Of a stretch of DNA of 48,978 nt, positions 1 to 48,272 are shown piece after piece. The DNA comes from an uncultured Bacillota bacterium (GTDB taxonomy: Bacteria > Bacillota_I > Bacilli_A > Erysipelotrichales > Coprobacillaceae): positions 1 to 48,978 of the forward strand of contig CASETM010000008.1 of assembly GCA_949290865.1 (NCBI GenBank), written 5' to 3'. The notes beneath the pieces were generated by a model. The model was not told the origin of the DNA and made no database searches. It saw only the letters and a program-made list of their open reading frames with translations. Numbering within the stretch: the first letter of the stretch is position 1; the number at the start of each line of letters is the position of its first letter. The translations under genes and the position numbers were made by a program.

Positions 1-161
1 CCTTTTTTGTATAGAAAAAATGGTTAAGTTTATAGATTAATTTCAGGGGAAATTAAACAAAATATATAAAAAACCAAGGTAGAATGGGGTTTTATGGTTA
101 AAAATTATAAAAAATAATTAACTGTTTTTGACACTACCATGATAGTTAAGGGGAGAGTATT

Positions 162-4013: not shown

Positions 4014-4532
4014 TTATTCACTGGCTAAAATTGAAGCCGTCGTATATGTTCTGGTTGCCAGTTCGCTGTTTAATTGATATAAAGCTTTAGGATCATGACC
4101 AAATAATGAGAATTTTGTCAGCAGGTCATTAGCATTCTTTTCTTCTTCGCCCTGTTCTTCAACATACCAGTCTAAAAATTTCATTGTACGATAGTCGTGC
4201 AGCTGATGAGCTTCATGATAAATATGATGAATCAGTTCAGTAACATACTGTTCATGTTCAAGAGCATATTTCAGTGGGTCATCCAGATTTTTCAGTTCTT
4301 TATCAGGTTTGGCAATGGCTGATAAAGTGACAACATAATCATTATCCTGTAGATAGTTTAAAATACCAATCGCATGATCCATTTCTTCTTTGGCCTGGAT
4401 CCTGTACCAGTTAGCAAAGCCATCTAAACCTTTTGCAGTATAGAAATTCGCAAAATCCAGGTACAGATAAGCAGAATACATTTCTTTATTAATTTGATCA
4501 TTCAGTAAATTTGCGACATTATTATTCAACAT
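4014..4532 (-). CDS. ftnA: Non-heme ferritin, iron-storage protein
   Basis: 172 residues, the usual length for bacterial ferritin. The four-helix pattern carries ferroxidase-type acidic residues: a glutamate in the NKEMYSAYLYL helix, QAKEEMDHA in helix B and EQGEEEKNA in helix C. It oxidises Fe2+ and stores iron in a 24-mer shell in the cytoplasm. The start is the ATG at 4532. An upstream in-frame ATG at 4547 is rejected because its first codons are themselves the GGAGGTG ribosome binding site. A TTGTCA-N16-TATAAT promoter precedes it, overlapped by an inverted repeat. It pairs logically with the nearby feo iron-uptake island. Confidence 0.94.
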   Translation of the reverse strand: MLNNNVANLLNDQINKEMYSAYLYLDFANFYTAKGLDGFANWYRIQAKEEMDHAIGILNYLQDNDYVVTLSAIAKPDKELKNLDDPLKYALEHEQYVTELIHHIYHEAHQLHDYRTMKFLDWYVEEQGEEEKNANDLLTKFSLFGHDPKALYQLNSELATRTYTTASILASE

Positions 4533-4557
4533 TTTTCGCACCTCCATCTTTCTTTTT

Positions 4558-4592
4558 ATTATATGCTTTTTTTTACAAATGACAAAGCATAT
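4558..4592 (-). promoter_or_regulatory. Ferritin promoter with overlapping inverted repeat
   Basis: On the minus strand, TTGTCA (4585-4580), a 16-nt spacer and TATAAT (4563-4558). An inverted repeat ATATGCTTT (4561-4569) / AAAGCATAT (4584-4592) covers both boxes. Its 14-nt spacing does not match a Fur/PerR 7-1-7 box, so the regulator is unknown. Confidence 0.6.
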
Positions 4593-4652
4593 GAACTTTT
4601 TTTATAAATATTATTTTGTTAGAATAAAAATAACGAAGCAGGAGAGATGATC

Positions 4653-5894
4653 ATGAAAAAAGTAAAATTTACATTAAAAAGTCAGGAATTAAAAGAAAAG
4701 AAAGTCTTTCGCGATGCAATCCACAATTATATCCATGTTGATCATGATGTTGTTTTAAAACTGATCAATTCAGCAGCGATGCAACGACTGAAAAGGATCA
4801 AACAGCTTGGCGGGATTCATCAGGTTTTTCAAAGTGCAGAACACTCACGTTTTACACATTCTTTAGGTGTCTATGCCGTAGTAAGAAGAATGCTGGAAGA
4901 AAGCGTTATTGGTGATTATTTAAATGATTACGAAAAGCTGACCGTGATGATTGCCGGTTTGCTTCATGATTTGGGTCACGGTCCATTTTCCCATTGCTTT
5001 GAAAATATTTTCCAGCAGAAACATGAAGCATATACAGTCAGAATTATTAAAGAAGATCAGGAAATTCATCATATTCTCGAAGACTGTGTCAAAGGTTTAA
5101 GTCATGACGTTGCCAGTGTTATTGATAAGACGCATCCTAATCATATCCTGATTCAGATGATCTCCAGTCAGCTCGATGCCGACAGAATGGATTATCTCCT
5201 TCGCGACAGCTATTTTACTGGAACAACATACGGCCAGTTTGATCTATCAAGGATCCTGCGGGTCATGCAGGTCAGACAGGGAAAGATCGTTTATAAATAT
5301 TCGGGAGTTCAGGCCATCGAAAATTATATACTGGCTCGTTATCATATGTACTGGCAGGTTTACTATCACCCAACAACACGCTGTTATGAGCAGATTCTTA
5401 TCAGTATTTTTAGAAGAATCAGTGATTTGTATAAACAGAAAAAGATTAACTGTGATTTGGAATATCTTTTGCCTTTTATTAATCATGATGTGAGTATTCA
5501 GGATTATCTGAATTTAGATGAATATATCTGTTTTTATTATTTTAGAAAACTCAGTCAGCATCCCGATACGATTTTAAGTGATCTCTGCCAGCGACTGTTA
5601 AATAGAAAACTTTTTGTTTATGAAGATTATAAATCGGCAAAGCAGAAATCATTGATCGAAACCCAATGTTTAAAAGCAGGGTACGATCCTCGTTACTATG
5701 TGTTTGGAGATGATCAGATGCAGATACCTTATCTGCATTATGGCAATAAAGATGATATTAGAGAAATAGAAATTATCAAGGGTCATCAGCTTACTTCTCT
5801 GCCGGATGTTTCAGAAATCGTAGGAGCGATTATCAAGGCTAAAGAAAATAAGACCGATTCGAAAATTTATTATCCAGAAACTATTGACAAATAA
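4653..5894 (+). CDS. HD-domain phosphohydrolase, dGTPase-like (YwfO family)
   Basis: About 413 residues. The HD metal site is clear: HSRFTHSLGVY near residue 65, GLLHDLGHGPFSH near 109 and a downstream QLDADRMDYLLRD segment near 173. The family includes dNTP triphosphohydrolases such as B. subtilis YwfO, which hydrolyse dNTPs to nucleosides and triphosphate. The start at 4653 is preferred over the ATG at 4647 because AGGAG at 4640-4644 would sit only 2 nt before 4647 but 8 nt before 4653. An extended -10 (TGTTAGAAT, 4617-4625) lies upstream. Its 3' end overlaps the -35 box of the following small gene. Confidence 0.88.
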   Translation: MKKVKFTLKSQELKEKKVFRDAIHNYIHVDHDVVLKLINSAAMQRLKRIKQLGGIHQVFQSAEHSRFTHSLGVYAVVRRMLEESVIGDYLNDYEKLTVMIAGLLHDLGHGPFSHCFENIFQQKHEAYTVRIIKEDQEIHHILEDCVKGLSHDVASVIDKTHPNHILIQMISSQLDADRMDYLLRDSYFTGTTYGQFDLSRILRVMQVRQGKIVYKYSGVQAIENYILARYHMYWQVYYHPTTRCYEQILISIFRRISDLYKQKKINCDLEYLLPFINHDVSIQDYLNLDEYICFYYFRKLSQHPDTILSDLCQRLLNRKLFVYEDYKSAKQKSLIETQCLKAGYDPRYYVFGDDQMQIPYLHYGNKDDIREIEIIKGHQLTSLPDVSEIVGAIIKAKENKTDSKIYYPETIDK

Positions 5895-39850: not shown

Positions 39851-40055
39851 GTGTATAAAGAAAAAAGTATAATAGTAATTTGAATCTGAAAAGTGATAAT
39901 GATATAGGGGGCAGGAGCAGGTGATTACAATGTTTATTTTTTTGATATGCAAATGAAGTGATGGAATATGTTTTAATCTTTGTTGTTTTTTTTTTACATT
40001 AATGTGATTTTTTTTGCATTTAAAGTTCACAATTAATTCATAATATAATTGTATA
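39851..40055. other. Non-coding stretch between adhE and the candidate small RNA
   Basis: No convincing gene. It holds an 8-codon frame at 39930 (MFIFLICK) behind a good AGGTGA site, a TATAAT-like box at 39868-39873, a palindrome ACATTAATGT near 39995 and an A/T-rich TATAAT-like stretch at 40044-40049 that may serve the small RNA downstream. Confidence 0.3.
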
Positions 40056-40144
40056 TTAACATTGTCAGATGAAGACAAGTATAAGTGTCCCCTCTCCCAA
40101 AATATTCACTTATACTATAAAAAGAAGCGAAAGCTTCTTTTTTT
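40056..40144 (+). ncRNA. Candidate small RNA with a C-rich loop and intrinsic terminator
   Basis: Three stems in series: TTGTC-AGATGAA-GACAA (40062-40078); a 10-bp stem AGTATAAGTG/CACTTATACT (40078-40087 with 40107-40116) whose 19-nt loop shows TCCCCTCTCCC (40088-40098); and a terminator AAAGAAGC-GAAA-GCTTCTTT followed by T4 (40121-40144). The loop is complementary to Shine-Dalgarno sequences, as in RsaE-like sRNAs of Gram-positives. The 5' end is uncertain and the promoter is weak. No coding frame explains the structure. Confidence 0.5.
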
Positions 40145-40217
40145 CTTTTTATGCTTATAATTTATTGATTAATGCTCAATGATAAATATATAGATTTGTG
40201 AAAAAATAAAATTATTA

Positions 40218-41920
<1,703 letters not shown>

Positions 41921-47668: not shown

Positions 47669-47696
47669 ATACTTATAAATGGAGAGGGGGATTTAT

Positions 47697-48272
47697 ATGG
47701 CGTTTTGTCAATCTTGCGGTAGAGAAATACCAAATGATTCTAAATTTTGTCCGCATTGTGGAGCAACACAAACAACAGCTCAAAATGGATTTCAGCCAAA
47801 TATGAATTTTAACCAGACATTTACAACTGCTAATAATTTGCCAATGAACTGGTATAAATTTCTTATTTATGTTGCGTTGTTTTTAGGAGCTATTTCTAAT
47901 GCATACGCAGGAATTCAATTGGTAACAGGTGGTCAATATCAAGATATGGCCTCATGGGTATATTTATATTATCCATCATTAAAAATGATTGATGTGGTTA
48001 TTGGTATTGTATCTATTGCCTTAGCGATTTTTGCAATTGTTGTTAGACAGAAACTGGCAAATTTTCAAAGTGATGGACCTAAAATGTTGTTGATGCTTTA
48101 TATTGGATCTATTGCTATGTCTGTTATTTATCTGATTTTGTTTATGGGAGTTGTTGGCAGAGATGCTGATATTAACTCATCAACAATTTTAGCATCACTG
48201 TCAGTCAGTGTTGTCATGGCTATTGTTAATAAGATATATTTTGATAAAAGACAGCATTTATTTATTTATTAA
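47697..48272 (+). CDS. Zinc-ribbon membrane protein of unknown function
   Basis: 191 residues: an N-terminal zinc ribbon (Cys4, Cys7, Cys18 and Cys21, CQSCG and CPHCG), a glutamine/asparagine-rich linker and about four membrane helices. Such proteins are common in Firmicutes and often have no known role. The start is ATG 47697 behind GAGAGGGGGA; an ATG at 47679 is upstream of it. The purine-rich binding site is complementary to the loop of the candidate small RNA at 40088-40098. Confidence 0.75.
   Translation: MAFCQSCGREIPNDSKFCPHCGATQTTAQNGFQPNMNFNQTFTTANNLPMNWYKFLIYVALFLGAISNAYAGIQLVTGGQYQDMASWVYLYYPSLKMIDVVIGIVSIALAIFAIVVRQKLANFQSDGPKMLLMLYIGSIAMSVIYLILFMGVVGRDADINSSTILASLSVSVVMAIVNKIYFDKRQHLFIY

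Follow-up and report, generated by a model that had tools for sequence, protein, structure and literature searches.

The locus

The window, a stretch of 48,978 nucleotides from a Faecalibacillus-type genome (Coprobacillaceae), contains a predicted small RNA gene with its own promoter in the gap between adhE and pyrG. The features there are as follows.

40025 to 40042, plus strand: 11-bp direct repeat GTTCACA-N4-ATTCATA, reading GTTCACAATTAATTCATA, recognised by its conservation; presumed site of an OmpR-family response regulator
40052 to 40057, plus strand: -10 element TATATT, nine bases after the repeat
40062 to 40145, plus strand: small RNA gene, its start estimated from the -10 box and its end from the terminator
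40062 to 40078, plus strand: 5' hairpin UUGUC-AGAUGAA-GACAA, with a weak stem of 4-5 bp
40078 to 40116, plus strand: loop hairpin, with a 10-bp stem (40078-40087 with 40107-40116) in which nine of ten pairs have changed on both sides among relatives
40088 to 40098, plus strand: CU-rich seed UCCCCUCUCCC, presumed Shine-Dalgarno-binding loop, unpaired in predicted folds
40119 to 40142, plus strand: intrinsic terminator with a GAAA loop, found by terminator scan

Three hairpins fold within 40056-40144 on the plus strand: the short 5' hairpin, the loop hairpin, whose 19-nt loop (40088-40106) opens with the seed, and the GAAA-capped terminator, followed by T. The free energy of this interval is -24.1 kcal/mol, compared with -8.0 for shuffles (z -7.0; 0 of 200 shuffles as good), and the loop hairpin alone reaches a fold z of -7.7. 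The three stacked hairpins described in the initial annotation, the last a GAAA-capped terminator, are thus upheld by both the fold z-score and the terminator scan. Its start at 40056 is not: the -10 box occupies 40052-40057, and the RNA therefore probably begins at about 40061-40064, with a length of about 80 nt. The regulatory direct repeat at 40025-40042 had been missed altogether. No plausible protein gene lies over the RNA in the adhE-pyrG gap, the listed 83-aa frame being antisense to it, and ARAGORN and Rfam, run on the window, gave no match.

Close to the predicted 5' end, 31 of 42 copies of the RNA have a GTC-N3-9-GAC arrangement. The 5' leaders of pstS in several genomes (L074-L085) begin with a GTGTC...GAC hairpin like that of the RNA; a 5' hairpin of this type is perhaps a common 5'-end stabiliser in Coprobacillaceae. 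In the leader of the neighbouring pyrG gene (40250-40290 in the window), a GAGGGC start region precedes a short terminator, ATGTCTTCC ATA GGAAGACAT TTTTTT; we take this to resemble the CTP-sensing reiterative-transcription attenuator of Firmicutes.

Conservation and covariation

In a DNA search, four species of the window's genus gave close copies, and so did one species outside that genus, whose copy has matched changes in the stem and an unchanged loop. Aligned by sequence alone, this small set has changes on both sides in 4 of 11 pairs. A covariance model built from six sequences detected copies in 27 of 43 family genomes at E up to 0.01; after refinement it detected them in 29 of the 43, plus one genome of another family, whose copy is nearly identical to a main-family copy and may reflect transfer or contamination. 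With a further genome (G014) added by a pattern search, the carriers number 30 of 43 Coprobacillaceae genomes. Fitted to the model, 96% of cells pair, 65 cells have changes on both sides and 9 of 10 pairs are so changed, a level reached by 0 of 500 shuffles, in an alignment that leans towards structure. Because of this leaning, and because MAFFT misplaced the 3' arms of divergent hairpins, an alignment-free test was applied in which the stem arms of 17 copies were exchanged: pairing of a copy's own arms averages -14.3 kcal/mol versus -6.1 for swapped arms, and 0 of 20000 permutations equal it. Compensatory changes in the stems of relatives, proposed in the initial annotation as a check, are therefore present.

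The CTCTCCC loop core is identical across the 17 aligned hairpins. A pattern scan of 84,980 species, combining repeat and loop, gave matches mostly in Coprobacillaceae (Faecalibacillus, Massilimicrobiota, Stoquefichus, Longibaculum, Beduini, Thomasclavelia and CHKCI006). The CHKCI006 copy has the same loop on a wholly different stem (GGCATGG/CCATGCC), and its sequence also occurs in G014. Since the loop is constant while the stem covaries across genera, the element is not a product of chance, and on these comparative grounds 40062-40145 is almost certainly a real small RNA gene.

Carrier genomes have one to four copies, the window's genome one; many have two to four, often in tandem and 150-190 nt apart. 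Alongside the constant CTCTCCC core there is a second loop class, CTTCTTCCCC, and the surrounding stem varies in a fully compensatory way. The loop forms among the copies are CCCCUCUCCC, CCCCCUUCUUCCCC and UUCCCUCUCCC. A further CCCC lies in the terminator region of 25 of 42 copies, often as a UUCCCCA loop; the window's copy lacks it. At the gathering score, Rfam gave no match at the RNA in the window or at 13 homologous loci, and at E up to 5 the window region gave only weak, chance-level matches to unrelated families, LhrC not among them. Covariation and the lack of an Rfam match thus support the proposal that the RNA, with its terminator and Shine-Dalgarno-complementary loop, represents a new sRNA family.

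Promoter and putative regulator

An RTTCAYA-N4-RTTCAYA repeat lies directly upstream of 35 of 48 copies (33 exact, two with a one-base departure). Its distance to the -10 box is nine bases in 32 of these 35, and A2 and T6 of the box are present in all 35, the box having been picked as the best hexamer 5-13 bases past the repeat, with ties resolved towards nine. Massilimicrobiota copies have up to four repeats, in register. Where two copies sit beside pyrG in Thomasclavelia-type genomes, the downstream one has the repeat and the upstream one an ordinary TTGACA promoter instead. A stricter form, GTTCAYANNNAATTCAYA, occurs eight times in six genomes: seven times before the sRNAs and once in a truncated duplicate of the sRNA promoter. 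The reversed control has no match in the same six genomes, and the window's own genome contains no second exact match to its promoter repeat. This layout, with an 11-bp direct repeat immediately before the -10 box in place of a -35, matches that of OmpR-family activators, and the sRNA is likely to be under the control of a regulator of this type. HssR-type repeats, which we take to read GTTCATATT-NN-GTTCATATT, bear some resemblance to it; no paper in the literature searched gives that sequence.

Two genomes of one genus have a divergent copy, with loop AACUCUCUCUCCC, directly upstream of an OmpR-type response regulator/histidine kinase operon.

L107, 2640 to 2870, and L131, about 4480 to 4700 (minus strand in L131): divergent copy upstream of the response regulator/histidine kinase operon

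The response regulator beside these g8 copies was considered as a universal regulator of the family and rejected: close orthologues (at least 66% identity) occur only in g8 and G061, too few of the carriers for a general regulator, and a 57% orthologue is present in G018, a genome without the sRNA.

Two loci have related promoter sequences. In the window's genome a related repeat, GTTCATTTTCAGTTCATA, precedes the -10 box of the groES-groEL operon (L023 1501; G000:C20:2283). At L066 1501 (G036:C1:1562599) there is a duplicated sRNA promoter with the RNA body lost or replaced, and a second copy nearby in the genome.

Candidate targets

Two sites complementary to the loop, before a zinc-ribbon gene and a clc gene, had been named as possible targets in the window, and both are present.

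47681 to 47689, plus strand: candidate target, Shine-Dalgarno of a zinc-ribbon membrane protein gene (47697-48272), -20.7 kcal/mol
150 to 157, plus strand: weaker candidate target, before a chloride-channel (clc) type gene (162-1727), -15.1 kcal/mol

The zinc-ribbon site (GGAGAGGGG) ranks first among 412 sampled starts, and G005, alone among the close relatives in having the gene, retains it; the clc site (GGGGAGAG) stands at about rank 15 of the 412. Over these 412 translation starts, from a sample of about 400 kb of the genome used as background, the loop pairs no more strongly than composition-shuffled loops do. Complementarity alone is therefore no evidence for targets, and target calling on that basis was rejected; the caution in the initial annotation that such complementarity is expected by chance was well placed. 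The zinc-ribbon gene, with its first rank and its retention in G005 on one side and a pairing that is not significant by itself on the other, is a plausible target, as is the clc gene.

A third candidate, a Polysacc_synt_2 polysaccharide-biosynthesis gene outside the window, was picked from the same genome by its exact GGGAGAGGG ribosome site; the other exact sites in the genome are one in a tRNA gene and one at the 3' end of a gene for a small lysine-rich protein. Across 19 other carriers, which as related genomes are not phylogenetically independent, the loop pairs with the start of the polysaccharide gene at a mean of -16.2 kcal/mol; the corresponding value for 139 other genes from carriers is -9.2 (Mann-Whitney p about 2e-10), and shuffled loops equal the result in only 0.6% of cases. 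Homologues in four genomes without a clear sRNA copy give -7.0 to -10.2 kcal/mol, and the ribosome site is unusually G-rich in the 19 carriers and not in these four, which are also more distant (42-54% identity), the RNA of G006 being doubtful. One genome with the G-rich site, G014, seemed at first to be without the RNA and was then found to carry a divergent copy. Long G runs are present at the gene in G010 and G026, and a run of ten G lies within its ribosome-binding site in L168 and L169. Such a run is likely a phase-variable tract, and G-rich ribosome sites may therefore have causes other than the sRNA. Overall the polysaccharide gene is the best supported of the candidates, with about an even chance of being a real target; that the sRNA acts by antisense pairing at ribosome sites in general seems likely.

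The small lysine-rich gene, upstream of lysS, carries at its 3' end, just before the terminator, an 11-nt perfect complement of the loop, UUGGGAGAGGG. This is seen in G000 and G005 (L152, about 1500; L149, minus strand, about 1500). Possibly it acts as a sponge for the sRNA.

Alternative explanations

The position of the RNA invites explanations based on its neighbours, but these vary. The adhE gene lies upstream in the window and in G002-G004, a DUF308-like gene takes its place, with pyrG still alongside, in G005 and Thomasclavelia-type genomes, and in other genera the neighbours are pyrG, an ABC transporter, a HAD-type hydrolase, prfA and a polysaccharide flippase (names read from translations). 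This variation argues for action in trans, with no cis role for pyrG and no special tie to adhE. A leader or attenuator whose hairpins and terminator set read-through into pyrG would fit the Faecalibacillus-type and several Thomasclavelia-type genomes, where pyrG is downstream; it is nevertheless extremely improbable, given that pyrG has a promoter-like site and a short terminator (40264-40284) of its own, that each sRNA copy has a separate promoter and terminator, and that in other genera the RNA adjoins unrelated genes, sometimes in the opposite direction to its neighbour. The connection to central metabolism through adhE made in the initial annotation is not supported in view of the same variation, adhE being no conserved neighbour. 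A redox or central-metabolism sRNA of the RoxS/RsaE type, for which UCCC-type loops with a terminator and the upstream adhE of the window could be cited, is very improbable: there is no Rfam family match, and two of the better candidate targets encode polysaccharide biosynthesis and a small membrane protein.

Two further possibilities concern what controls the RNA and what it binds. It could be an ordinary member of the PhoP regulon, made in phosphate starvation: the broad PhoP consensus is TT(A/T/C)A(C/T)A with 11-bp spacing, which the TTCAYA repeats, up to four of them in Massilimicrobiota copies, would fit. The pstS promoters examined in the same genomes, however, use TTTACA/TTAACA repeats and never TTCAYA, so that the regulator is probably not PhoP and the Pho-box idea was dropped; the stricter sRNA box is also absent elsewhere in the six genomes scanned. 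Phosphate control in this form is unlikely. The CU-rich loops might instead act by titrating an RNA-binding protein, and not by pairing with mRNA, in the manner of RsmY and RsmZ, which are titrating RNAs of comparable design. A nearly invariant loop in multiple, tandem copies, often repeated in the terminator loop, would suit such a role, but what the second loop form CCCCCUUCUUCCCC retains is its anti-Shine-Dalgarno character and not a fixed protein motif, and the ribosome site of the polysaccharide gene tracks the RNA. We know of no CU-binding regulator of this titrated type in these bacteria, and consider titration quite unlikely.

Proposed mechanism and significance

The explanation we favour, and regard as reasonably probable, is that of a standalone antisense sRNA acting in trans, of the same kind as LhrC and the csRNAs: a two-component system would induce it, and its loop would pair with Shine-Dalgarno sites. 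The sequence supports the early steps of this scheme: transcription would start from the RNA's own promoter (a -10 box with the 11-bp direct repeat nine bases upstream), yield an RNA of about 80 nt ending at the intrinsic terminator, and present the CU-rich loop unpaired on a stem that is conserved and covaries. The repeat would be bound by an OmpR-type response regulator in its phosphorylated form, which would recruit polymerase, the RNA being made on an external or envelope signal. The loop would then pair with G-rich Shine-Dalgarno sites and block ribosomes. Its main target would be the Polysacc_synt_2 gene, so that the signal would lower surface polysaccharide; the zinc-ribbon gene and others encoding membrane proteins may be further targets.

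A more far-reaching version, which we offer tentatively, is a family-wide Coprobacillaceae circuit in which one dedicated response regulator would act mainly or only through CU-rich RNAs and turn surface-polysaccharide synthesis off. A dedicated regulator of this kind is suggested by the stricter box, which in the six genomes scanned occurs only at sRNA loci. That the copies would be modular parts of this circuit, differing in loop and promoter, is a possibility we hold just as loosely.

Coprobacillaceae are common gut commensals (Faecalibacillus, Thomasclavelia, Massilimicrobiota, Longibaculum), and no paper on their regulatory small RNAs was found in the literature searched. In the sRNA family described here both the RNA and its operator are defined, and there is a target that can be tested. 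Should the polysaccharide target be a true one, an external signal would be linked to how much capsule or exopolysaccharide gut bacteria make.

Comparison with known systems

The unpaired C-rich motif and intrinsic terminator place the RNA, by functional kind, among the C-rich sRNAs of low-GC Gram-positives. Kinship with RsaE had been suggested for it. RsaE/RoxS and FsrA (Staphylococcus, Bacillus) are indeed alike in having a C-rich unpaired motif covering Shine-Dalgarno sites in low-GC Gram-positives, but no homology was found and promoter, structure and neighbours differ; RsaE is not the nearest analogue, and the multicopy, two-component-controlled LhrC and csRNAs fit better.

LhrC1-5 of Listeria monocytogenes comprise several copies with UCCC motifs in loops and in the terminator loop, pair with Shine-Dalgarno sequences and are controlled by LisRK (PMC4132741). 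The Coprobacillaceae RNA is likewise multicopy (in many relatives), with a C-rich, Shine-Dalgarno-complementary loop and a promoter presumed to be of two-component type. It differs in having no sequence match to LhrC, a longer core (CCCCUCUCCC) within a 19-nt loop whose stem covaries, an RTTCAYA-N4-RTTCAYA promoter repeat and, in some genomes including the window's, only one copy. The streptococcal csRNAs of the CiaRH regulon are short, terminator-ended, several per genome and able to pair with Shine-Dalgarno sites, and in CiaR promoters the sequence TTTAAG-N5-TTTAAG, likewise a direct repeat of 11 bp, lies about 10 nt upstream of the -10 box (PMC3091779). The N5 repeat and nine-base spacing of the sRNA promoter mirror these, although the repeat is TTCAYA-N5-TTCAYA rather than TTTAAG and no sequence is shared; the pairing part is inside a hairpin loop, whereas that of the csRNAs is mainly between two hairpins. 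The sRNA would work like LhrC and the csRNAs, but is a separate family, a member of neither.

A short RNA gene of the same design is also present on Aquificota/Persephonella contigs (L114, L115, L118, L121), where TTTCACA-N4-TTTCACA is followed after nine bases by a TATAAT-like box and an invariant CU-rich TTTTCTCCTAAACCTCCTCCCCTCTCCCTCCTTTCCCCC leads into a CCCCC/GGGGG terminator. This RNA has no Rfam match and is probably independent of the Coprobacillaceae sRNA, the same design seeming to have arisen separately in Persephonella. The combination known from LhrC and the csRNAs, a direct-repeat promoter with a CU-rich anti-Shine-Dalgarno loop, would extend to other lineages as well, a point relevant to the frequency with which circuits of this sort arise in evolution.
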